A stretch of 59,683 bases of DNA from a virus: positions 1-59,683 of the IMG/VR virus record IMGVR_UViG_3300030106_002282; one strand, given 5' to 3'. Each line of letters opens with the position of its first letter. The first letter of the stretch is position 1. The notes below the pieces were generated by a model. The model searched no databases. It saw only the letters and a list, made by a program, of their open reading frames with translations, and had not been told where the DNA came from. Made by a program: the position numbers and the translations under genes. Below, piece by piece: positions 1,122 through 41,388 of the stretch.

Positions 1122-1202
1122 GCCTACTGACGTGCTAGTGAAATTCTAGCGAAACGCATTAAATAGATTTAAGTCTAGCCTGTAAAAAGGTTGCTTCTAG
1201 GT
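1122..1202 (+). ncRNA. Hammerhead-like RNA, type I, degenerate
   Basis: Stem I GCCTA (1122-1126) pairs with TAGGT (1198-1202). The core reads CTGACGT (1127-1133), then stem II GCTAG/CTAGC (1134-1138, 1146-1150) with loop TGAAATT, then GAAAC (1151-1155). Two hairpins follow (TAGAT/GTCTA at 1164-1177; CCT/AGG at 1179-1190) and then TTC (1195-1197), the predicted cleavage triplet. The layout matches the element at 1667-1748 with different stem sequences, that is, with covariation. The essential core A9 is a T here and the predicted stem III has mismatches, so this copy may be weak or inactive. Confidence 0.4.
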
Positions 1203-1252: not shown

Positions 1253-1666
1253 ATGAAAATAAATTTTATAGAAATAGCAGGATATGAAAGTATTGATGCC
1301 AATATAGATTTCATTAACAATGAAATAACTCCTGTTGATTACGTGAAAAACTTTTCATGTAATGCAGTTCCTGTTGAAGGTGGCGGTCTTTGGTATTCCT
1401 ATACATTTAATAATTTGCTCGTGACTGTTATCTGTCACCCAGGTTCTATTGGTGGTCTTAGCGGTAAATGGGAAATAGGTATCAGAAATAAAGATACAGG
1501 TGAATGGTTAAATGTTCCTAATGGATATATTTCCACAAGTCAGGGAGGTGTCGAGGGTTGGAAATCTTGGAATGAAATCCAGATAATCCTTAAAAAAATT
1601 CTTGCTGACGCTATGGAAGAAATTCGTTTAGAGAGTAAAGAGCCACTTACCTTAGAAGATTTATAA
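1253..1666 (+). CDS. Hypothetical early phage protein
   Basis: 137 aa. I do not recognise a family. The N-terminal two thirds is mixed alpha/beta with a Gly-rich stretch (PVEGGGLWYSY at about residues 41-51, PGSIGGLSGKWEIGI at about 64-78) and many aromatic residues. The last 30 residues form a charged helix. It is soluble with no signal peptide. A strong Shine-Dalgarno in a hairpin loop precedes it, and hammerhead-like leaders lie on both sides, so it was probably expressed as part of the same early series as the downstream AAA+ ATPase. Confidence 0.75.
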   Translation: MKINFIEIAGYESIDANIDFINNEITPVDYVKNFSCNAVPVEGGGLWYSYTFNNLLVTVICHPGSIGGLSGKWEIGIRNKDTGEWLNVPNGYISTSQGGVEGWKSWNEIQIILKKILADAMEEIRLESKEPLTLEDL

Positions 1667-1748
1667 ATCAACTGACGAGCCTGTGAAATTCAGGCGAAAC
1701 ATTAAACTAGTATCCAGTAATGGACTAACCCTATACGGGTGTCTTGGT
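1667..1748 (+). ncRNA. Hammerhead ribozyme candidate, type I
   Basis: Stem I ATCAA (1667-1671) pairs with TTGGT (1744-1748, two wobble-tolerant positions). The core CTGACGA (1672-1678) is intact. Stem II is GCCTG/CAGGC (1679-1683, 1691-1695) with loop TGAAATT, identical to the loop in the 1122-1202 element although the stem differs. GAAAC is at 1696-1700. Stem III begins ACATT and ends before GTC (1741-1743), the predicted cleavage triplet. Inside stem III are two hairpins (TCCA/TGGA at 1713-1724; ACCC/GGGT at 1728-1740), which is unusual for this family. It sits in the leader of the AAA+ ATPase gene. Confidence 0.55.
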
Positions 1749-1804: not shown

Positions 1805-2854
1805 ATGAAACCAAGTCAAGCGATACTATCGATGAAATCGATATTAAAGGGTTCTAATACTCCTTACCTTCAAGGTAAGCCAGGTATTGGAAAAAGTGCA
1901 ATTGTTAGGAAACTAGCCGAAGAATTTGCAGAAGATAGAGAGATTGTAAATTCAATTAATCCAACTAAAAAACAGTTTGGGTTTATTGATTTCAGATTGT
2001 CTCTTTATGAGACTGTTGATTTAGGCGGGTTGCCTTACATAGACGAAGATAACCAACAGAAGAGAGCCTTTTTAGGAAATCTTCCTGTAGGTGGCGAGGG
2101 CATATTATTCTTTGATGAATTTGCTCAGGCTCATTCGTCTGTGATGTGTGTCTGCGGACAATTACTCTATGAAAGAAAAATCGGAGAGTATGTTCTGCCT
2201 GAAGGGTGGAAGATTGTCTGTGCGGGAAACAGGGCAACTGACAGAGCAGGAGCAAATAAAATTCCTACTCAAGTTAATGACAGGTGTACGATGTTAAATG
2301 TAGATGAAAACATCAACGACTGGATTGCATGGGCAACTGAGAATGATGTAAGTCCTGACGTATTGGGATTCATTAGTTATGAACCTCAGTACCTTTGCGA
2401 CTTTGACCCAAAAATAACGACTCCACAGCCGAGTCCTCGTTCTTGGGTTCGTCTTTCTGATACATTGAAAACGAATCCGCCAAAAGAAATTTTGCAATTA
2501 GTTTGTGAAGGGGATATTGGCGAGACTGCTTCGATTGAATTTCTTACCTTTTTGTCTTTGAAAAATGACTTGCCGAATGTTCAAGACATTTGCGAAGGCA
2601 AAGACGTAGAAATGATTGACGAGGGCGGTAAATCTTATGCTCTAGTTTGTGCATTAGTTTCGATTCTTAAATCGGAAATAGATAATCCAAACGTAGCTAA
2701 TTATTTTCAAAATAGTCTTAACTATGTTGAGAAATTACCTACTCCAGAATTTGCGATTTTCTATGTTCGTTCTTTGATTGGAGCAATACCAGACTTAGCA
2801 GAAACTTCTACTTATTCTGATTTCAAAATTAGAAATCAAGATTTAGAAGTCTAG
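1805..2854 (+). CDS. MoxR-like AAA+ ATPase
   Basis: 349 aa. The Walker A motif is GKPGIGKS (residues 24-31) and the Walker B motif is ILFFDEFAQA (about residues 101-110). This fits the AAA_5/MoxR branch, whose members act as chaperone-like ATPases that load or remodel a VWA-domain partner. The partner candidate is encoded two genes downstream (3990-5339), with a DUF3150-like protein between them. This three-gene set recurs in phages and prophages, but its role there is unproven. The long leader with a hammerhead candidate and a hairpin-borne Shine-Dalgarno suggests post-transcriptional control. There is no membrane segment. Confidence 0.85.
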   Translation: MKPSQAILSMKSILKGSNTPYLQGKPGIGKSAIVRKLAEEFAEDREIVNSINPTKKQFGFIDFRLSLYETVDLGGLPYIDEDNQQKRAFLGNLPVGGEGILFFDEFAQAHSSVMCVCGQLLYERKIGEYVLPEGWKIVCAGNRATDRAGANKIPTQVNDRCTMLNVDENINDWIAWATENDVSPDVLGFISYEPQYLCDFDPKITTPQPSPRSWVRLSDTLKTNPPKEILQLVCEGDIGETASIEFLTFLSLKNDLPNVQDICEGKDVEMIDEGGKSYALVCALVSILKSEIDNPNVANYFQNSLNYVEKLPTPEFAIFYVRSLIGAIPDLAETSTYSDFKIRNQDLEV

Positions 2855-2880
2855 GTTGAAAAATGAATTGGGCGAGATGT

Positions 2881-2904
2881 AAAAAAATATTATTCGCTAG
2901 TGAA
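2881..2904 (-). repeat. Dispersed palindromic motif
   Basis: Read on the minus strand: TTCACTAGCGAA followed by TAATATTTTTTT. One core base differs (GCGA instead of GTGA). It lies between the ATPase stop codon and the hammerhead ribozyme at 2930. Confidence 0.75.
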
Positions 2905-2929
2905 TAAAATTACATCTTGCTCACTTCAA

Positions 2930-2986
2930 TATCTGATATTGGAATGTGTATTCCAACTGACGAGCAGGAAACTGCGAAATCAGATA
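2930..2986 (+). ncRNA. Hammerhead ribozyme, type III
   Basis: All elements of a hammerhead are present. Stem III is TATCTGAT (2930-2937) with ATCAGATA (2979-2986), 8 perfect pairs. The cleavage nucleotide is A2938 (triplet ATA). Stem I is TTGGAAT (2939-2945) with ATTCCAA (2950-2956), 7 perfect pairs with loop GTGT. The core CTGACGA is at 2957-2963. Stem II is GCAG/CTGC (2964-2967, 2972-2975) with a GAAA tetraloop, and GAA is at 2976-2978 next to A15.1 (2979). The order makes it type III, with cleavage predicted between 2938 and 2939. It lies in the leader of the gene at 3017, so cleavage would leave the downstream message with a 5' hydroxyl and a defined structured 5' end. Confidence 0.85.
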
Positions 2987-2999
2987 ACTTTTATCTAAC

Positions 3000-3013
3000 A
3001 GAATGGAGGTTCT
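3000..3013 (+). promoter_or_regulatory. Shine-Dalgarno presented in a hairpin loop
   Basis: AGAA (3000-3003) pairs with TTCT (3010-3013); the loop is TGGAGG. The start codon is at 3017. Confidence 0.6.
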
Positions 3014-3016
3014 AAA

Positions 3017-4003
3017 ATGGATAAAAAATTAACTAATACCTTATCGGAAAACTGTATGTTGGTACGTCTTACTGCAAGACATCCTTCAGGCATTAAGGTC
3101 GATAAGAAGTTAAGAAGCGATTTAGCGGTTGATACGAAAGTATCTGACGATAAATTGTTAGGTGTTTCTAAACATATCTTTGGTCGAAATATCAATAAAG
3201 AGTTTCGCCAAATTTTAGATAAGTTTAGAAATGACTTTTATAAACCTTTAACTTTACCCTGGGACGATTCTTCTTCCCTTGACGAAGAGGGAAAAGTTTT
3301 ATCGGAATGGCGACTTTGCCCTAACACGAATCTTGAGCGACTTCAGTATGAAGTAGACCAAGCGACTCTTGTCTGGGATAAAGAAGTTCAAGGGTTTCTC
3401 AGAACCTATCCTAAACAAATGGAAATGGCGAAGAGAAATTTGGGCGATGCTTTCAGAGAAAGTGATTACATGGATTTTGACAAATTAAGACAAAAGTTTT
3501 TGTTTCAATTTGAAATGACTCCTGTTCCTACTTTCGGAAACGATATCAGACTTAACGTCTCAGAAAAGTTAAGGCAGAGAATAGAAGCGGATGCGATTAA
3601 TCGCCAAAGTAAAAACATCAATAACGTAATGACAATTACTGTTGATGCTTTGCTAGAGCAGGTTAATCACGTTGCAACTAAACTCAAAGAGTATGACCCT
3701 GACAATAAGCAGAAAGGCGGATTCTTTAACAAGTCTAGTTTCGAGAAATTGAGACAAGCGGTTGAAGTGCTACCTTCTATTAATCAGGACGTACTAGGCA
3801 ATAATCAAAATATTGCTGACGCTCATCAAAGTCTTTGTTCTGTTCTTGCAACAATAAATTCTGTTGATTCTCTTAGAGATGAAACAGATTTAGGGAAGCA
3901 AAAACGTGGACAGGTTGCTGAAGGTCTTGAGCGGTCTGTTGATGGACTGAAAGGCAATTTGTTCGACAAAATTTATGGAGGTAAGAAAGATGAAAACTCT
4001 TGA
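3017..4003 (+). CDS. DUF3150-like protein of the MoxR/VWA module
   Basis: 328 aa, soluble and mostly helical. The N-terminus (NCMLVRLTARHPSGIKVDKK) and the following conserved-looking block resemble DUF3150 proteins, which are usually encoded between a MoxR-like ATPase and a VWA protein in phage genomes. Position supports this better than sequence recall alone. It starts 30 bases after the hammerhead ribozyme. Its end overlaps the start of the next gene by 14 bases, and the Shine-Dalgarno of that gene lies inside its final codons, so the two are translationally coupled. Biochemical function is unknown. Confidence 0.65.
   Translation: MDKKLTNTLSENCMLVRLTARHPSGIKVDKKLRSDLAVDTKVSDDKLLGVSKHIFGRNINKEFRQILDKFRNDFYKPLTLPWDDSSSLDEEGKVLSEWRLCPNTNLERLQYEVDQATLVWDKEVQGFLRTYPKQMEMAKRNLGDAFRESDYMDFDKLRQKFLFQFEMTPVPTFGNDIRLNVSEKLRQRIEADAINRQSKNINNVMTITVDALLEQVNHVATKLKEYDPDNKQKGGFFNKSSFEKLRQAVEVLPSINQDVLGNNQNIADAHQSLCSVLATINSVDSLRDETDLGKQKRGQVAEGLERSVDGLKGNLFDKIYGGKKDENS
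3973..3984 (+). promoter_or_regulatory. Shine-Dalgarno in a short hairpin, inside the upstream gene
   Basis: TTA (3973-3975) and TAA (3982-3984) flank TGGAGG. This decides the start of the next gene: the ATG at 3975 overlaps the Shine-Dalgarno itself, so 3990 is the real start. Confidence 0.45.
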
Positions 4004-5339
4004 TTCCATAATTAAGGCTAGAGCAAAATTGATGAAAGGGCATATTGGCATGGCTAGTATGCTCCTTAATCTTGACTTGGTTGAATGTGAAGAATCAAAG
4101 TGCAATACGATGGCAACAGATGGTAAAAACATTTTTTACTATCCGCCTTTCGTGGATAAATTAACTGAAGCAGAATTGCGAGGTGTACTTGTTCACGAAG
4201 CGTTGCACGTTGTTTATGAGCATCCACTAAGACGTGGTAAACGTCATCCTAAAGTATGGAATATTGCTTGTGATTACGTTATCAATGCTTACTTGTATTG
4301 GGATTTAGGTTTTGAATTGCCTTTTGGCGGTTTACTTGACCATAAATACAAGGGTTGGTCTGCGGAAAAGGTCTATCAACATTTAATTAAAAATGAAAAT
4401 GACCTGCAAGAAGCAATTGAGCAAGTCAAACAGCAGAATCAAGATGCGGACATGGAGGACGATTCGCAAGATTCTGAAATACCAGACACTAGTGAAGAAA
4501 ATATTTCTGAAGAAGCTGACGAAGATAGCGAAGCCGATGGCGGAGAATCTGAGTCAATTGATTTAGATGCTATTCCTTCAACTATTGGCGAGGTATTAGA
4601 TGCAACTGACGATGAAGGAAAGCCTTTGAGTGATGCTGAGATTCAAGAAATTTCAACTGAGATTCAAAGAGCAGTAGCCTTATCTGACAAGTTAGAAATA
4701 GCTGTTGGAAGCGGTACTAATTCATCTTGCGGTGGCAGAATGGAAGAATTGAAAGAAACTTCAATTGACTGGAAAGAGCAATTGAATGACCTCTTACGTT
4801 CTTCTTTTGCTAACGATTATTCGTGGTCGAGACTGAATAAAAGGTTTGCTTGGCAGGGTTTAAATTTGCCGAGTAAAACTAGGTCTCCGCAAGGTGGCGA
4901 ATTAGCGGTTGCAATTGATACTTCAGGTTCTGTATCTCAATACGAATTGAATAAATTTGCTACTGAGATACAAGCTATGGCGGAGGACTGCGGTCTTGAA
5001 AAAATCAGAGTTTGCTACTGTGATACAACTGTTCGTAAAAATGAGCAGGGGGAATGGTGGGATTACTTTGATTTATCTTCTGGCGATGAATTGGAATTAG
5101 CAGTTCGTGGCGGTGGCGGTACAGAGTTTGACCCTGTATTTAATCTGCTGAATGACTACACTGATGATGCCGAAGATATTCAGGCGATGGTCTATTTTAC
5201 AGATGGTTGGGGAGACGTTTCTGAAGACGTTGAACCTGATGTTCCTGTGTTTTGGTGTTGTACTGAAAAAAGCAGTTATTCGGAACGTCTTGCCTTTGGC
5301 GAGGTGGTCTATGTAGATACTGCTAGATTCTACGACTAA
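3990..5339 (+). CDS. Metallopeptidase-like and VWA domain protein
   Basis: 449 aa from the ATG at 3990. The N-terminal half carries VHEALHVVYEH with a zinc-type HExxH (HEALH, about residues 69-73), as in DUF2201/VWA-like putative metallopeptidases. A very acidic linker follows (about residues 150-220). The C-terminal third is a von Willebrand A-like domain with a MIDAS motif (DTSGSVS, near residue 310) and YFTDGWGD near the end. With the MoxR-like ATPase it forms a recognisable ATPase/VWA pair. In known cases the ATPase remodels a target bound by the VWA protein; the target here is unknown. Confidence 0.8.
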   Translation: MKTLDSIIKARAKLMKGHIGMASMLLNLDLVECEESKCNTMATDGKNIFYYPPFVDKLTEAELRGVLVHEALHVVYEHPLRRGKRHPKVWNIACDYVINAYLYWDLGFELPFGGLLDHKYKGWSAEKVYQHLIKNENDLQEAIEQVKQQNQDADMEDDSQDSEIPDTSEENISEEADEDSEADGGESESIDLDAIPSTIGEVLDATDDEGKPLSDAEIQEISTEIQRAVALSDKLEIAVGSGTNSSCGGRMEELKETSIDWKEQLNDLLRSSFANDYSWSRLNKRFAWQGLNLPSKTRSPQGGELAVAIDTSGSVSQYELNKFATEIQAMAEDCGLEKIRVCYCDTTVRKNEQGEWWDYFDLSSGDELELAVRGGGGTEFDPVFNLLNDYTDDAEDIQAMVYFTDGWGDVSEDVEPDVPVFWCCTEKSSYSERLAFGEVVYVDTARFYD

Positions 5340-5350
5340 AAACTTTCTAT

Positions 5351-5400
5351 TAGCGAGTGATATTTGAGGGGTACTCAGATATCACTTGCTATTAGTTTTG
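5351..5400 (+). terminator. Terminator-like hairpin after the VWA gene
   Basis: Bases 5351-5368 pair with 5374-5391 over 18 consecutive positions (two G-T pairs), with loop GGGTA, followed by TTAGTTTTG. The stem is long and AT-rich and the T-tract is weak, so it may be a partial terminator or a processing/stability structure rather than a full stop. Confidence 0.55.
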
Positions 5401-5434
5401 CCCTCTATGAGCCTGTATGGAGGTCTAATTTTAA

Positions 5435-5521
5435 AAACTGATAGCAAAATGTGTGTTTTGCCTGATGAACGCGAAAGCGTACCCTTCTAGGAGGGTGGCT
5501 CAAAAGAGCCGAAATCAGTTT
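5435..5521 (+). ncRNA. Hammerhead ribozyme with expanded stem II region
   Basis: Stem III AAACTGAT (5435-5442) pairs perfectly with ATCAGTTT (5514-5521). A5443 is the predicted cleavage nucleotide. Stem I is GCAAAA (5444-5449) with TTTTGC (5456-5461). The core CTGATGA is at 5462-5468 and GAA at 5511-5513. Between the two core strands are three hairpins instead of one: ACGC/GCGT (5469-5480, GAAA loop), ACCCT/AGGGT (5481-5496) and GGCTC/GAGCC (5497-5510, AAAA loop). The order is the same type III order as at 2930-2986. Whether the core tolerates this insertion is the main uncertainty. Confidence 0.6.
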
Positions 5522-5532
5522 AACTAACTTTT

Positions 5533-5550
5533 ATAAGATGGAGGTCTTAT
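5533..5550 (+). promoter_or_regulatory. Shine-Dalgarno presented in a hairpin loop
   Basis: ATAAGA (5533-5538) pairs with TCTTAT (5545-5550), loop TGGAGG. The 3' strand runs into the ATG at 5549. Confidence 0.65.
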
Positions 5551-5821
5551 GAATGATTTAAATATGAAGGTATTCTATAAAAATGTTTATGGTAATGACC
5601 TTTGCTATCCTTTTTGCAACACTGCAAAGAAATTCGCAAAGTTAATTGACCAAAAAACTTTTAATAAATACCACTTGGAAACAATAAAAACTTTGAAATA
5701 TAAAATTGATATTGTTGCTTATAATCCTAAACAAAAAGATGCTTGGGACACTTCTGCTAAATGGATTAAAGAGGATATGAAAGAAAATCCTCAGAGATAC
5801 CAAAACAAGGAGGAGTTATGA
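5549..5821 (+). CDS. Hypothetical early protein
   Basis: 90 aa, basic and Lys-rich, no membrane segment. I do not recognise a family. Its N-terminal part has the pattern FYKNVYGNDLCYPFCNTAKK. It starts a short co-directional unit whose genes overlap by 4 bases (5818, 6015, 6722, 6850), which is typical of coupled phage early genes. It is preceded by the expanded hammerhead and a 6-bp Shine-Dalgarno hairpin. Confidence 0.75.
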   Translation: MNDLNMKVFYKNVYGNDLCYPFCNTAKKFAKLIDQKTFNKYHLETIKTLKYKIDIVAYNPKQKDAWDTSAKWIKEDMKENPQRYQNKEEL

Positions 5822-7008: not shown

Positions 7009-7014
7009 AATTAA

Positions 7015-7055
7015 GGCGGTAGCTACTTTAACGAGTAGCTACCGCCTTTTTTTTT
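7015..7055 (+). terminator. Strong intrinsic terminator
   Basis: GGCGGTAGCTACT (7015-7027) pairs perfectly with AGTAGCTACCGCC (7034-7046), 13 bp, loop TTAACG, followed by nine T residues (7047-7055). It ends the early plus-strand unit 6 bases after the last stop codon. Confidence 0.95.
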
Positions 7056-29984: not shown

Positions 29985-30454
29985 ACGTCATCCTCAAAAT
30001 TATATTCATAAAATGTAGCTGGTTTTTTCCAACCTTTTTTATTTTTGACCCAATTCCATTGTCCATGTCTGCCCATACCCTCCAAACCATCGCAACCAGT
30101 TTCTTTGGCATATTTTGTAATTACATCTAAACCTTTTTCTATCCAATCTTGCATTTTTTTTCCTGATGTATGTTCTAGATTTAACATTTTTTTACCAGTT
30201 GGATAAAAGTTAAATATTGTTATTTGTATACCAATAATTTCAAAACTACCTGTATCAAAGATTATCCAAAGTTGTGAATCGTTATTTAATAAATCATTTA
30301 AAACATCTTGCGGTCTAGTTCTGCCACCAGAACGATTAGCTGATTTTTGTATTAACTTTTCAACACCATCCCAAATTAAAATTACTTGATTTTGCGGAAC
30401 AAGAGAAATTTCATATTCTTCAGTTGCTTCTTCTTTTAATAATGATTGATTCAT
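29981..30454 (-). CDS. GNAT-like phage protein
   Basis: 157 aa. The order of strands and helices, with FEIIGIQITIFNFYPTGKK, then LNLEHTSGKKMQDWIEKGL, then KETGCDGLEGMGRHGQWNW, looks like the acetyltransferase-fold proteins often encoded among podovirus internal virion genes. No clear acetyl-CoA loop can be pointed out, so catalysis is uncertain. It overlaps its neighbours by 4 bases on both sides. Confidence 0.5.
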   Translation of the reverse strand: MNQSLLKEEATEEYEISLVPQNQVILIWDGVEKLIQKSANRSGGRTRPQDVLNDLLNNDSQLWIIFDTGSFEIIGIQITIFNFYPTGKKMLNLEHTSGKKMQDWIEKGLDVITKYAKETGCDGLEGMGRHGQWNWVKNKKGWKKPATFYEYNFEDDV

Positions 30455-36774: not shown

Positions 36775-37087
36775 TTTTAGTTCCTTTATTTACTCTAGGT
36801 TCAATTAAACCTGGTTTAGCAAAAGCAAGTTTGCTTAAATCATGCCTTTTAAATACGTCTAAATAGCGTTGCATTTCTGCTTCATACTGTTGAGTTTTAG
36901 ATTGTAATTCTAATAACCCTTCAGTTTGCAATTTAAAATCATTTTGCAAGCTTTCTATAGCTGCTTTTTGTTCTTTATCTCGCAGTTCAAAAGCTTGATT
37001 TATTTCAGCTAATCTAGAATTTTGCCAATACAAAAAACTACAAGCTAGTAACAATATCCCAACTACGCCTAATAATATTTTACTCAT
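36692..37087 (-). CDS. Inner-membrane spanin, Rz-like
   Basis: 131 aa. One N-terminal membrane segment (ILLGVVGILLLACSFLYW, residues 4-21) and then a long periplasmic coiled coil (about 25-85). The part FKRHDLSKLAFAKPGLIE followed by an ENIEEISR helix is typical of the i-spanins of marine and T4-like phages. It overlaps both the o-spanin gene and, by 8 bases, the end of the cyclase gene upstream, so the curli/cyclase module is transcriptionally joined to lysis. Confidence 0.75.
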   Translation of the reverse strand: MSKILLGVVGILLLACSFLYWQNSRLAEINQAFELRDKEQKAAIESLQNDFKLQTEGLLELQSKTQQYEAEMQRYLDVFKRHDLSKLAFAKPGLIEPRVNKGTKNVFENIEEISRNIDLLDDGLQLQSNTD

Positions 37088-38846
37088 ATGTATAAATTTT
37101 TAATGGACTAATTTTACCTTTGACTAGTATAGGCTCTAAAGATTTTAAATGATAACCACATAAACTTTCTGTTGATTCACTAATTAGTAAATCTACTTTT
37201 CTTTCTTTAGTAGCACTTTCTAATCGTGCTGCAACATTTACTGCATCTCCTATAGCTGTGTAATCAAATCTAGTAGCAGAACCCATATTTCCTATTGCTG
37301 CAGGACCAGTATTGATTCCTATACCTATAGCTATTTCTGGTAATCTTTCTTCTTGTAATTCAACAGCTAAATCATTTATATTTTTAATTATTTCTAAAGC
37401 ACAATCTACTGCTGCTTTTGCGTGGTCTTGCAAATCTAAAGGTGCATTAAATATTGCCATCATTGCATCGCCTATATATTTATCTACCATACCGCCATAA
37501 TTTTGTACTGCTATTTGTTGAGCAGTAAGAACTTTATTCATAATATAAGTAACATCTTCAGGTTTTAATTTTTCTGACATAGCAGTAAAACCTCTAACAT
37601 CAGTAAATAAAAAAGTAGCTGTTTTAGTTTCGCCACCTAATTTTAATAACTCAGGATTGTCTTGTAAGCGTTTTACCTGTTTAGGGTCTAAATAATGTTC
37701 AAATTGTTTTTTTATCTGTAAACGTAATTTAAATTGTTCTCTAAATCTTAAATAAAATGCAATAGTTGCTACTACAAACTGTGATATTAAAGTCCATGTG
37801 ACATCAAGTAATATACCTTTTTGTATTAAATAATATCCAATACCTGCTGTTAGAAAAAATAATACACTAGTGAATAATATTCCAGCAGTTATTCCAAAAT
37901 AAAATAAAGCAAACCAAATAGCAGTTATTGATGTTATTAATATTAATATTTCTGCAATCCAACTCCAATCAGGTATATAAGGACTGTCTTGTATTAACAA
38001 AGATTCTGATAACGCTGCTTGTATTTTATGTGGTTCTAATAAACCTATTGGAGTAGCTACTTGTGGCATTACACCATTTGCCGTAACTCCAACAAAAACA
38101 AATTTACCAAATACTTCCATATTGTCTAAATCTGTTTCTGGAGTATTTACCCAACTAATCCATTTTCTACCTAACGTATCTGTTTTTACTGGCGGTATAC
38201 CTTGTACTGTTATTTCTTCTATACCTGCTGTAGATGTTTTTATTATGTAAGTTTTACTATTAGTTAAAGTTTTTAAAACTTCTGTGCCAAAAGCACTTAC
38301 AAAACCATCAGGTGTTTCTAACAATAAAGGTATTCTTCTAACTAGATTATCTATGTCTACAGGTGCTGTTGCTATGCCTTGTGTTGCAGATTTTTTTAAG
38401 ACTTCAATATTTTCTACAACACCTTGAGTTTTTATTCCATTAGGTTTGCCTTCTCCTAAATAAACTGTACCTGAAGTTTTTGGATAATTACCACTAACAT
38501 TTTCAAACATAGCTAAAATAGAGGGAGACAAAGCTAAAGCTGATGCAAATGTTTCATCACCTTTAAATCTGTCTTTTTCACTAAATGCAATAACCCAACC
38601 AACACCTAATGCACCTTTATTTAATAACTCAACATGAATATCTGCATAATCTTGTCGGGGAAAAGGAAAACCGCCTCTATCAGTAACATTTTTTTCGGTA
38701 ATATTTAAAATAACAAAATTACCTGAAGGTTCTTGTTTTTTTATTAAAGCATCAAAAGTTTTTAATTTTAGAATTTCTATAAAACTAACATTAAAAACAA
38801 ATGGCAAAAGTAAAATTAATATTAATGGTAAAATTATTTTTTTCAT
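37080..38846 (-). CDS. CHASE2-domain class III adenylate cyclase
   Basis: 588 aa membrane signalling enzyme. An N-terminal membrane segment (about residues 3-22) is followed by a periplasmic CHASE2 sensor domain (about 25-290, with FPFPRQDYADIHVELL and ISWVNTPETD), then three membrane segments (about 296-366) and a cytoplasmic cyclase domain (about 405-585). Catalytic features are complete: FTDVRGF (D for metal, near 416), DKYIGDAMMAIF (K for adenine, second metal D, near 455), FDYTAIGDAVNVAARLE (D for adenine, N and R for transition state, near 532). Lys/Asp at the base-selecting positions predicts ATP to cAMP. It lies directly downstream of the FecR gene. Confidence 0.9.
   Translation of the reverse strand: MKKIILPLILILLLPFVFNVSFIEILKLKTFDALIKKQEPSGNFVILNITEKNVTDRGGFPFPRQDYADIHVELLNKGALGVGWVIAFSEKDRFKGDETFASALALSPSILAMFENVSGNYPKTSGTVYLGEGKPNGIKTQGVVENIEVLKKSATQGIATAPVDIDNLVRRIPLLLETPDGFVSAFGTEVLKTLTNSKTYIIKTSTAGIEEITVQGIPPVKTDTLGRKWISWVNTPETDLDNMEVFGKFVFVGVTANGVMPQVATPIGLLEPHKIQAALSESLLIQDSPYIPDWSWIAEILILITSITAIWFALFYFGITAGILFTSVLFFLTAGIGYYLIQKGILLDVTWTLISQFVVATIAFYLRFREQFKLRLQIKKQFEHYLDPKQVKRLQDNPELLKLGGETKTATFLFTDVRGFTAMSEKLKPEDVTYIMNKVLTAQQIAVQNYGGMVDKYIGDAMMAIFNAPLDLQDHAKAAVDCALEIIKNINDLAVELQEERLPEIAIGIGINTGPAAIGNMGSATRFDYTAIGDAVNVAARLESATKERKVDLLISESTESLCGYHLKSLEPILVKGKISPLKIYTYE
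37863..37884 (+). repeat. Dispersed palindromic motif
   Basis: ACACTAGTGAATAATATT inside the membrane segment region of the cyclase gene; the first core base is changed (A for T). Confidence 0.65.
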
Positions 38847-38848
38847 TT

Positions 38849-39961
38849 TTATTGCTGACTCAATGTGATAGTAGAGTCACCACCTCCATTAACTTTAATT
38901 ACTTTACTTACTCCATCTTGTACTAAAATAATTGTATAAGCATTGCTACCATCCACATCTAGTCTTACATTTTGGTTTACATTTCTTCTAAAACTAATAA
39001 TTTGACCTGTAACTAAAGTTGTAATTTGTGTGTCTTTATCTTGTCCTAAGTCTGTACCAACTATATTTATACCTGTAGCTTGGCTGAGTTTATCTTCTTC
39101 TTCTTCTATTGCTAGTGCATCTACAATATCTAACAAATCTTCAAGGAAATTAACATCCAAAAAATTTATATCTAATTCAGTAAACTCTAATTCTTCTTTA
39201 CTATCTAAAAAATCTTCATCTAAATAATCAATATCAAGGTCATTAAAATCTAAGACTGTATCTTTTTTTGTTTGTACTTCTTCAACAAGTTGTTTGTTTT
39301 GTTTAGGAGGAGAAACAATCAACATATTATCAATTGTGTCTAATGTTAAATCTAAAGTTATTGGTTTTGTTGGTGCAGATTCAAATACAGACACAGTAGT
39401 AGCTTGAAAAGGTTTATTTAATAAAACGCTGCCTGTAGCTGTAACTACCTCTATTTCGCCACTAGATAAACCTAATCTATCAGGCAATAATATTATTAAA
39501 CTTCTACCTAATTCATCAACTGTTGCAGTAAAGTCAGTACCCCTTATTGCTATATTAGCTGTTGGTGTCGATAACTTAATATTTTTTTTATCTATTTTGT
39601 TAAAGCCACCTGTAATAAATCTAGCTGTGCCCAAAGTAAATTTAAGAGCCATTTTTGATTTACTTGGGTCAGAATCAAATACATATTCATTTATAACTAA
39701 TTCTGAATATTCTGTAAGTTTAACCTGCGAATCGTCTAAAAACTTTATGGCTAACCTGCCATTTTTAGTTATAGCTTCATCGTTTTGTTGTATAGCAAAC
39801 TTTAGTTGAGCATCGTAAGACTTATCTCTAACTATTTGTGCATTGCCATTTAATTCTGATATATCGCCTATACTACTGACATCCAGTGGCTGTGCCTTGG
39901 TCGTTTTGATTGATACAGAAAGTACCATTAGAACCAGCAGAAGTGATTTTAAGCCAATCAT
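38849..39961 (-). CDS. Secreted FecR-domain protein
   Basis: 370 aa. A signal peptide (residues 1-24, cleavage after TKA) is followed by a FecR domain (about 30-190) with GNAQIVRDKSYD, FLDDSQVKLTEYSELVINEY, FTLGTARFITGG and STPTANIAIRGTDFTATV, the usual core. A very acidic segment of about 80 residues follows, with repeated DIDYLDEDFLD and DINFLDVNFLED phrases, and then a small beta-rich end. In bacteria, secreted FecR proteins are often encoded next to CHASE2 cyclases and are thought to act in the periplasm. It starts inside the end of the curlin gene (89-base overlap). Confidence 0.85.
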   Translation of the reverse strand: MIGLKSLLLVLMVLSVSIKTTKAQPLDVSSIGDISELNGNAQIVRDKSYDAQLKFAIQQNDEAITKNGRLAIKFLDDSQVKLTEYSELVINEYVFDSDPSKSKMALKFTLGTARFITGGFNKIDKKNIKLSTPTANIAIRGTDFTATVDELGRSLIILLPDRLGLSSGEIEVVTATGSVLLNKPFQATTVSVFESAPTKPITLDLTLDTIDNMLIVSPPKQNKQLVEEVQTKKDTVLDFNDLDIDYLDEDFLDSKEELEFTELDINFLDVNFLEDLLDIVDALAIEEEEDKLSQATGINIVGTDLGQDKDTQITTLVTGQIISFRRNVNQNVRLDVDGSNAYTIILVQDGVSKVIKVNGGGDSTITLSQQ

Positions 39962-40595
39962 TATTTAATGTGCTTTGTTGCGTTATATTAAAAGTTCTTT
40001 GATTTCCGCCACTATGCGTTAAATGAAAATATCCATTAGAACTAGCATTTGTGCCATCGCCATCATAAGTAATCGTATTGTCACTACCATCTATGTTCAT
40101 GTAGTTGATAGCACCATCAATATCTATTGCTGCAGTTATATTATTACCACCGCCTTGAATAATCCAATCCAAATCAAGTCCTGAAGCCAATGCTGTAGTA
40201 GCTTGGTTGAGTGTCAAGTTGTTGGTATTACCAGTAACCTGTACATTCACGTTGGAATTGTCTGCTCCAAAAGTATTGGATGGGTCGGTTTGCATATTAA
40301 AAACATTACTGTCTCCTGCAAAATTAAAAAATCCCGTATAACTATCTGACCAAATGTCTCCTAAAAATTTATTAGAAGAACCAATTTGATTTATGTCTAG
40401 CGTCATAGATGCACCATCTAAATCAAGTGCTGTCATAGACCCAGCTTGTGCACTTGCACCACCTACAATATTAGAACCTCCTTGTTGTTCTATATCTAGG
40501 TTTGCAGTAGCACCTGACTGGTCTATATATATTTCATTATCTGCAAAGATTGTTATTGCAAATAATAAAAAAAATATTTTGTAAAAGTTATTCAT
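39873..40595 (-). CDS. Curlin-repeat (CsgA/CsgB-like) protein
   Basis: 240 aa from the ATG at 40595, preceded by AAAGGAGG. A signal peptide (about residues 1-18) is followed by imperfect curlin-type repeats with the Gln/Asn spacing of the amyloid core: IYIDQSGATANLDIEQQGGS, ALDLDGASMTLDINQIGSSN, NVNVQVTGNTNNLTLNQ, WIIQGGGNNITAAIDIDG and FNITQQSTLNNDWLKI. Repeats alternate hydrophobic residues with Q and N and contain G-x-x-N turns. Two Cys near the end (FCINQNDQG, TGC) are unusual for curlins. It overlaps the CsgG gene by 8 bases, so it is the natural substrate of the adjacent pore. Confidence 0.8.
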   Translation of the reverse strand: MNNFYKIFFLLFAITIFADNEIYIDQSGATANLDIEQQGGSNIVGGASAQAGSMTALDLDGASMTLDINQIGSSNKFLGDIWSDSYTGFFNFAGDSNVFNMQTDPSNTFGADNSNVNVQVTGNTNNLTLNQATTALASGLDLDWIIQGGGNNITAAIDIDGAINYMNIDGSDNTITYDGDGTNASSNGYFHLTHSGGNQRTFNITQQSTLNNDWLKITSAGSNGTFCINQNDQGTATGCQ

Positions 40596-41388
40596 AAGTC
40601 CAAAACCTCCTTTCATATCCTATGTTAACTATTTCTAAAATAGCACCTTCTATTGCTTTTTGTAGTGCTATTGTAGGACTTTCATTAGCAGCATTACCAA
40701 ATTCTAATTCAAGTAATTCCGTGTTTAATTCGTAAAATTTAAATACATCTTGCGTTTGACCATAACTATATATAGTTTTTTCTGATAAAACTTCTACTAA
40801 TATTTCGCCTGTCAAAACTGAAACTAATCTCAAACTTACAGTTACTGCATCTTGTCGGTATTCTATGCTAGAGCCTATACCTAAATATCTAGCACCAATA
40901 CCACCTGTTTTTAAATTACTATCATAAGCTAAAACTGCACCTTCTATGATAATTCCTGCAAACAATAAAGGTTTTAATTTTTTTTCGTTTTCGATTTCTC
41001 TGGTTGACCTAATTAATTGTCTTTCTTTAGTAAGATTATCTAAACCAACTCTTTCTACAACAATAAAAAAATTACCTTTTGCAGTATGTTTCAAAGCTCT
41101 TATTAGTAAAGATTGTGGAGCTTGTGTTAAAGCTGTAGAAAATAAAGCAAATTCACTATTACTTTTTCTTTGACCAGTCTGGTCTGTAAAACTATTTGGA
41201 TAAACAGCTATAACAGGTTTGTTTTTTGGAGCTTTAACATTTAATAACTCTTCAGAAAATAACCCTAAAATACTGGCATCTTCTTTTGCTTTTAACCTTT
41301 GATTTTCAGTATCTTCGATTACTTTAAATATACTACAACTAGAAAGTAAAAGAGCCGACAGGAATAGTAATAGTTGTCGTAGTTCCAT
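40588..41388 (-). CDS. csgG: CsgG-like curli secretion channel
   Basis: 266 aa, very close in length to bacterial CsgG (277 aa). A lipoprotein signal peptide ends at C18 (LLLSSC). PVIAVYPNSFTDQTGQRKSN, then ATGN-type spacing replaced by HTAKGNFFIVVERVGLDNL, and especially GGIGARYLGIGSSIEYRQD and LRLVSVLTGEILVEV, follow CsgG throughout (E. coli has GGVGARYFGIG and LRVVNVSTGEIL). It should form the nonameric outer-membrane pore through which curlin subunits are exported. It overlaps CsgF-like upstream by 50 bases and the curlin gene downstream by 8. Confidence 0.95.
   Translation of the reverse strand: MELRQLLLFLSALLLSSCSIFKVIEDTENQRLKAKEDASILGLFSEELLNVKAPKNKPVIAVYPNSFTDQTGQRKSNSEFALFSTALTQAPQSLLIRALKHTAKGNFFIVVERVGLDNLTKERQLIRSTREIENEKKLKPLLFAGIIIEGAVLAYDSNLKTGGIGARYLGIGSSIEYRQDAVTVSLRLVSVLTGEILVEVLSEKTIYSYGQTQDVFKFYELNTELLELEFGNAANESPTIALQKAIEGAILEIVNIGYERRFWTYE

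Follow-up and report, generated by a model that had tools for sequence, protein, structure and literature searches.

What does a hammerhead ribozyme do between the genes of a phage? The question is raised by a virus contig of 59,683 nt – the whole of this stretch is the window in what follows – that belongs to a caudovirus with a terminase 54% identical to that of Pelagibacter phage HTVC027P, and in which a self-cleaving RNA had been predicted downstream of a gene for a MoxR-like ATPase. A review from 2020 records all three hammerhead types in phage genomes (PMC7761336), and the accessible text of Perreault et al. (2011; PMC3088659) describes hammerheads of all three types flanking prophage genes, tandem sets that cleave in vitro (one set in E. 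coli) and copies with U10.1-U11.1 mismatches, and proposes that long phage transcripts are processed in this way. Because that text already sets out such clusters, the class itself is known. A review from 2017 treats the role of prokaryotic and phage hammerheads as an open question (PMC6155905), and a search of the literature outside subscription papers and preprints yielded no specific account of hammerhead operons in phages from the years after 2011. The operon analysed here, in which three or four successive gaps hold a ribozyme and stable hairpins lie upstream of the type III copies, offers an answer that can be tested.

A first issue is whether the RNA at 2930-2986, here termed HHR1, is real. 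The original prediction was of a type III hammerhead with a full core and stems of 8, 7 and 4 bp, cleaved between 2938 and 2939 and lying 78 nt from cleavage site to AUG (3017); sequence and minimum free energy (MFE) fold agree with it in every one of these particulars. The core elements stand in the order C3UGANGA9...G12AA-A15.1 (CUGACGA, then GAAA at 2976-2979), three helices are present of which I and II are closed by loops and III is open, and an NUH site (AUA) accompanies an A15.1-U16.1 pair. AUA is not the commonest site, GUC being used by most of the type III copies that we collected. The hammerhead emerges as MFE structure and as centroid alike (-18.1 kcal/mol, z -4.1, equalled by 0 of 200 shuffles), and the fold is also kept, beside a long hairpin, when the whole 166-nt gap is folded. 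The chance of such an arrangement had been put at very low, and a strict type III descriptor had a single match when both strands of 200 dinucleotide-shuffled windows were scanned, against two in the real window.

Chance is excluded by covariation. Relatives were picked solely by homology of the DUF3150-like protein encoded downstream, and the DNA ahead of that gene was read afterwards. In 15 of them a ribozyme with rewritten stems occupies the same gap as HHR1; all relatives with a DUF3150-like protein at least 59% identical have a hammerhead there, and one distant locus (L014, 25% identity) has none in that gap. Across the 16 distinct HHR1 orthologs, 296 of 308 helix cells are in standard pairs, whereas none of 1000 column-wise shuffles gave more than 226, a control uncorrected for the relatedness of the orthologs. 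These pairs were counted on a hand-made structural alignment verified against the DNA; a MAFFT alignment was dropped, having set stem III one column off between AUA and GUC forms. Double compensatory changes occur at 16 of the 20 base pairs and in all three stems – pair I-1 takes TA, AT, GC and CG – and the A15.1-U16.1 pair is invariant (16/16), as the core, the UGUGU of loop I and the A-rich loop II stay constant while the stems change. Given the number of independent pair types, there is no reasonable doubt, from sequence comparison, that this covariation is real despite relatedness. In one ortholog (L005, about 3920-3970) the core reads CUGAAUGA, with an extra A, and stem II has 2 bp; this copy is probably weak or dead, an A6a insertion as in CUGAAUGA being associated with low activity in the accessible text of PMC3088659. 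By every criterion of sequence and structure that could be applied HHR1 is thus confirmed as a type III hammerhead, and we regard the RNA as almost certainly genuine.

A covariance-model search against Rfam, suggested as a check on the original prediction, gave no such confirmation: HHR1 had no match in the window at the gathering threshold, nor up to E = 10. No window sequence reached the 48.5 bits demanded by RF00008, and a scan of eight relatives likewise gave no gathering-level match; the best relative reached 37.7 bits (E 1.8e-5) against RF00008 with its second hammerhead. For type I elements, the RF00163 cutoff was passed by one element in contig L124, and RF03152 matched the type I sites of contig L006 weakly (27-28 bits, cutoff 56.3). 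Weak matches to microRNA and snoRNA families near the upstream hairpin were rejected as chance matches to a long hairpin. Rfam is silent on the window because the phage copies lie far from its seed, and current models overlook nearly all such elements, so that annotation undercounts them. The likeness to Hammerhead_3 (RF00008) is nonetheless plain in element order, open stem III, core (CUGANGA...GAAA), NUH site and loops on stems I and II. The phage copies differ in falling below the cutoff or going unmatched, in being free-standing between phage genes rather than part of a circular RNA, and in the many cases of U.U or A.A at 10.1/11.1 or of extra sequence between A9 and stem II.

HHR1 had been assigned to the leader of an early gene. 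It does lie between the ATPase stop (2854) and the DUF3150-like/VWA pair (3017-5339), but the assignment understates the case: it is one of four such elements in an operon (Table 1). Each of the gaps at 1121-1252, 1667-1804, 2855-3016 and 5340-5548 contains, on the coding strand, one hammerhead or an element resembling one, and genes that overlap share one segment between ribozymes. In contig L097, with DUF3150 and ATPase proteins 53% and 56% identical to those of the window, the genes do not overlap and an extra hammerhead lies between DUF3150 and VWA; there each of the ATPase, DUF3150 and VWA genes is parted from the next by hammerheads.

Table 1. Coordinates of genes, ribozymes and hairpins in the ribozyme-bearing operon (positions in the window)
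Feature	Position	Strand	Remarks
Type I hammerhead-like element	1122-1202	+	before ORF 1253; A9U, C.U mismatch at 15.2/16.2 in stem III
ORF	1253-1666	+	
Type I hammerhead	1667-1748	+	gap before ATPase gene; predicted cut after C1743, GUC site
MoxR-like AAA ATPase gene	1805-2854	+	phrog_1297, E 8e-73
Stable hairpin	2864-2928	+	ends 1 nt before HHR1; same-place hairpins in relatives
HHR1, type III hammerhead ribozyme	2930-2986	+	core, fold, ortholog covariation, descriptor scan
HHR1 stem III	2930-2937/2979-2986	+	8 bp, open
HHR1 cleavage nucleotide	A2938	+	predicted cut between A2938 and U2939; AUA site 2936-2938
HHR1 stem I	2939-2945/2950-2956	+	7 bp, loop GUGU
HHR1 core CUGACGA	2957-2963	+	
HHR1 stem II	2964-2967/2972-2975	+	4 bp, loop GAAA
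HHR1 GAA	2976-2978	+	followed by A15.1 at 2979
DUF3150-like gene	3017-4003	+	53% identical to L097 protein matching PF11348; Shine-Dalgarno GGAGG at 3005
Metallopeptidase/VWA-like gene (DUF2201)	3975-5339	+	overlaps DUF3150-like gene
Long hairpin	5347-5396	+	after VWA gene stop, 5' of HHR2
Further hairpin	about 5402-5423	+	5' of HHR2
HHR2, type III hammerhead	5435-5521	+	predicted cleavage between 5443 and 5444; about 2.5 kb downstream of HHR1, after VWA gene
HHR2 extra hairpins between A9 and stem II	5469-5480, 5481-5496	+	ACGC-GAAA-GCGU, ACCCUU-CUAG-GAGGGU
HHR2 stem II	5497-5510	+	
ORF	5549-5821	+	overlaps its successors

Two of the four elements deviate from the standard form, HHR2 by two inserted helices and 1122-1202 by A9U. 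The MFE structure of the HHR2 gap is exactly the five-helix junction (z -7.5), 138 of 138 helix cells are paired among HHR2 orthologs, and in most relatives a further type III hammerhead follows the VWA gene; the type III model, scanned over the window, matched HHR2 in part (5444-5480). Other weak model matches in the window, among them 3839-3888 (15.5 bits, inside a gene) and 30398-30428 (15.4 bits), were rejected as chance.

A weak match of the type III model at 1658-1703 prompted a search for type I elements. The one at 1667-1748 has the full core, closed stems II and III, an open stem I and an NUH site 3' of the core, and a model made solely from relatives gives it 52.2 bits (E 1.4e-11). 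With such a model 1122-1202 scores 48.4 bits (E 1.5e-10); its core reads CUGACGU in place of the invariant CUGANGA, and its activity is, on sequence, doubtful. A9U recurs in the type I-like elements of four other contigs (L001 2656, L003 2654, L004 1226, L005 2664), an element thus conserved among relatives although the change is expected to harm activity. Copies with a consensus core stand at equivalent places in L006, L010, L011, L012, L033, L035 and L037. The elements before the ATPase gene share the type I order of RF00163 and of RAGATH-1 (RF03152); unlike these, the phage type I copies have a short open stem I (ACCAA/UUGGU), a conserved loop II (UGARAYU) and stem III loops that are often long and structured. 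Contig L124 carries a DNA-dependent RNA polymerase (PF00940) together with seven type I hammerheads and one of type III within about 8 kb.

Hammerhead cleavage leaves a 2',3'-cyclic phosphate on the upstream product and a 5'-hydroxyl on the downstream one, and the usual entry points for decay are 3' exonucleases and the 5'-monophosphate-dependent RNase E. We propose that the hammerheads divide the polycistronic mRNA of the phage into individual messages, HHR1 acting at the boundary that parts the ATPase gene from the DUF3150-like/VWA pair, and we consider this reading – activity and role taken together – to be probable. The working unit would be a two-part module in which a stable hairpin stands immediately 5' of the ribozyme. 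After the cut this hairpin, with the cyclic phosphate, would cap the 3' end of the upstream (ATPase) message; the downstream message would begin with a 5'-hydroxyl and the stem I hairpin, its Shine-Dalgarno sequence about 20 nt past the ribozyme, and both products would be guarded at their new ends. Repeated from gap to gap – the ATPase gene preceded by a type I ribozyme and followed by one of type III, the VWA gene followed by another of type III – the module would let one transcript yield separate messages with defined, nuclease-resistant ends, and from this we infer that these messages differ in stability or amount. The separation of ATPase and DUF3150/VWA messages originally suggested fits this arrangement: HHR2 bounds the gene pair 3', the ATPase gene has a type I element before it, and stable hairpins would cap each upstream message at its 3' end. 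The model predicts exact 5'-hydroxyl ends that could be found in marine metatranscriptomes.

Two hammerheads of like orientation border the DUF3150-like/VWA segment, as would also be expected if the pair excised it, to give a circular RNA or to join its flanks in the manner of retrozymes and viroid-like RNAs; in some relatives both ribozymes even have the same stem III, and a hybrid junction could form. We nevertheless think this unlikely. Pairing of at least five pairs between the 3' strand of a ribozyme and the 5' strand of its neighbour is only slightly above random expectation (37% versus 25%), other phages carry one or up to five ribozymes and not just flanking pairs, and spliced or circular products were sought and none found in the work reported in the accessible text of Perreault et al. 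(PMC3088659). Much the same holds, at a slightly lower probability, for a regulatory switch in which cleavage, or a ligand controlling it, turns downstream translation on or off. The ribozyme does lie just upstream of the Shine-Dalgarno site, and some copies have sequence or hairpins inserted beside stem II, where an aptamer could act; these hairpins vary in sequence between lineages, with no common conserved aptamer-like core, and the predicted accessibility of the Shine-Dalgarno sequence is unchanged by cleavage (0.79 before and 0.79 after for HHR1, 0.80 and 0.78 for HHR2), which argues against a switch. With this argument against a translation switch and little support for circularisation, the separation of messages is therefore favoured.

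The arrangement is not peculiar to this phage. A pattern scan of IMG/VR matched at least 120 stretches. The gene context of 138 distinct hammerheads among the matches listed was recorded: 95 are clear of called genes and 43 overlap them, many of these overlaps probably being artefacts of a simple ORF caller (early starts, spurious antisense ORFs). For the 95 among the matches listed, strand is shared with the following gene in 85 of 90 cases, at a median of 23 nt to its start, and with the preceding one in 87 of 93. There are 1-5 copies, mostly clustered within a few kb, in 21 of 22 other phage contigs, which were themselves selected for matching the hammerhead pattern. The hairpin is recurrent too: in a set of 175 (mostly viral, genome loci included) the 60 nt ahead of the ribozyme fold with a mean z of -2.56, versus -0.35 downstream and -0.52 further upstream, 59% fall below z -2 as against 11% and 9% of these controls, and the abutting hairpin usually stops 0-2 nt from stem III. 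As in the prophage clusters of Perreault et al. (PMC3088659), so far as their accessible text describes them, single genes or short blocks are bordered by several hammerheads, not all of one type, here on the coding strand; the present copies differ in lying mostly on metagenome virus contigs rather than in prophages, in the statistically supported 5' hairpin and in the helices inserted between A9 and stem II.

Applied to 84,980 genomes of prokaryotes, a stricter pattern matched 43 stretches; Patescibacteria MAGs account for many of these, and 38 pass the full descriptor. Type III hammerheads are found in Saccharibacteria, Paceibacterota and Nomurabacteria MAGs (L160-L202), some loci having 3-4 per 8 kb. 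A protein search of the prokaryote genome contigs found no DUF3150 relatives.

Among related phages presence is patchy. In a search for cultured phages with these ribozymes, neither the type III nor the type I model matched HTVC027P, HTVC023P, DSL-LC04, Pag-Yong1 or CRP-901, the type III model found nothing in Caulobacter phage RW, and 023Pt_psg01 gave two weak type III matches only. HTVC027P and HTVC023P are pelagiphages with a related terminase; since neither model matches them, phages of this group can evidently do without the system. Such patchiness, like the damaged core of 1122-1202, would suit inert or selfish remnants of no benefit to the phage, but we hold this to be very improbable: the stems have changed in compensatory fashion with core and loops fixed, and unrelated sequences do not differ in the position, the strand or the abutting hairpin. 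Taken together, these patterns of sequence indicate selection for cleavage at gene boundaries.

The inserted helices of HHR2 belong to a wider pattern. Double-hairpin insertions between A9 and stem II were found in 8 distinct sequences from about four unrelated sequence families, and a single extra U or A occupies this place in 33 of 193 distinct type III copies. Stem II has 5 bp in 23 of 27 copies with an insertion but in 5 of 98 without (Fisher p about 2e-16; counts taken after redundancy filtering, relatedness of copies uncorrected); as the scan that supplied most copies permitted 3-6 nt on the 3' side of loop II, it did not force the coupling. C17 is likewise present in just 1 of 33 copies with a 10.1/11.1 mismatch, versus 50 of 65 others (p about 5e-13). 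As regards a possible tertiary contact between the two loops, loop I is GUGU in 158 of the 193 copies and loop II mostly A-rich, features partly imposed by the search pattern. The recurrent insertion, tied as it is to a 5-bp stem II, appears from these alignments to be a new structural variant; we found neither it, nor the association of 10.1/11.1 with C17, nor a quantified abutting hairpin described in the open literature. It is tempting to suppose that many phages possess a genome-encoded RNA-processing layer, in which hairpin-hammerhead modules mark the gene boundaries and fall into subclasses of different speed, set by the insertion with its compensating fifth pair on the one hand and by the mismatch and loss of C17 on the other. 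We offer this tentatively, rating it somewhat short of an even prospect. If true, both subclasses would be new hammerhead architectures and message separation would be set by rate; the insertion class would also bear on how far the catalytic core tolerates extra helices.

Several further features of the window deserve mention. Between HHR1 and the Shine-Dalgarno sequence (2987-3000) is a ACUUUUAUCUAAC-like stretch, conserved among relatives and of no evident structure, and at about 7013-7055 a hairpin with a T run, resembling an intrinsic terminator by eye, apparently marks the end of the ribozyme-bearing operon. The apex of the hairpin before HHR1 is a palindromic motif, AATATTATTNACYRGT, which recurs in relatives and has 18 near-matches in the window against 1.7 expected; its sites, on both strands and in coding as well as non-coding DNA, include 2886, 7112, 7552, 8422, 12570, 16346, 18210, 37866 and 49725, and it is possibly a phage promoter or a protein-binding site. 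Finally, 37080-41388 on the minus strand encodes CsgG as well as a CHASE2 and adenylate/guanylate cyclase protein, and the ORFs between the two look by eye FecR-like and curlin-repeat-like: a signalling and curli-like cassette that is unusual for a phage.
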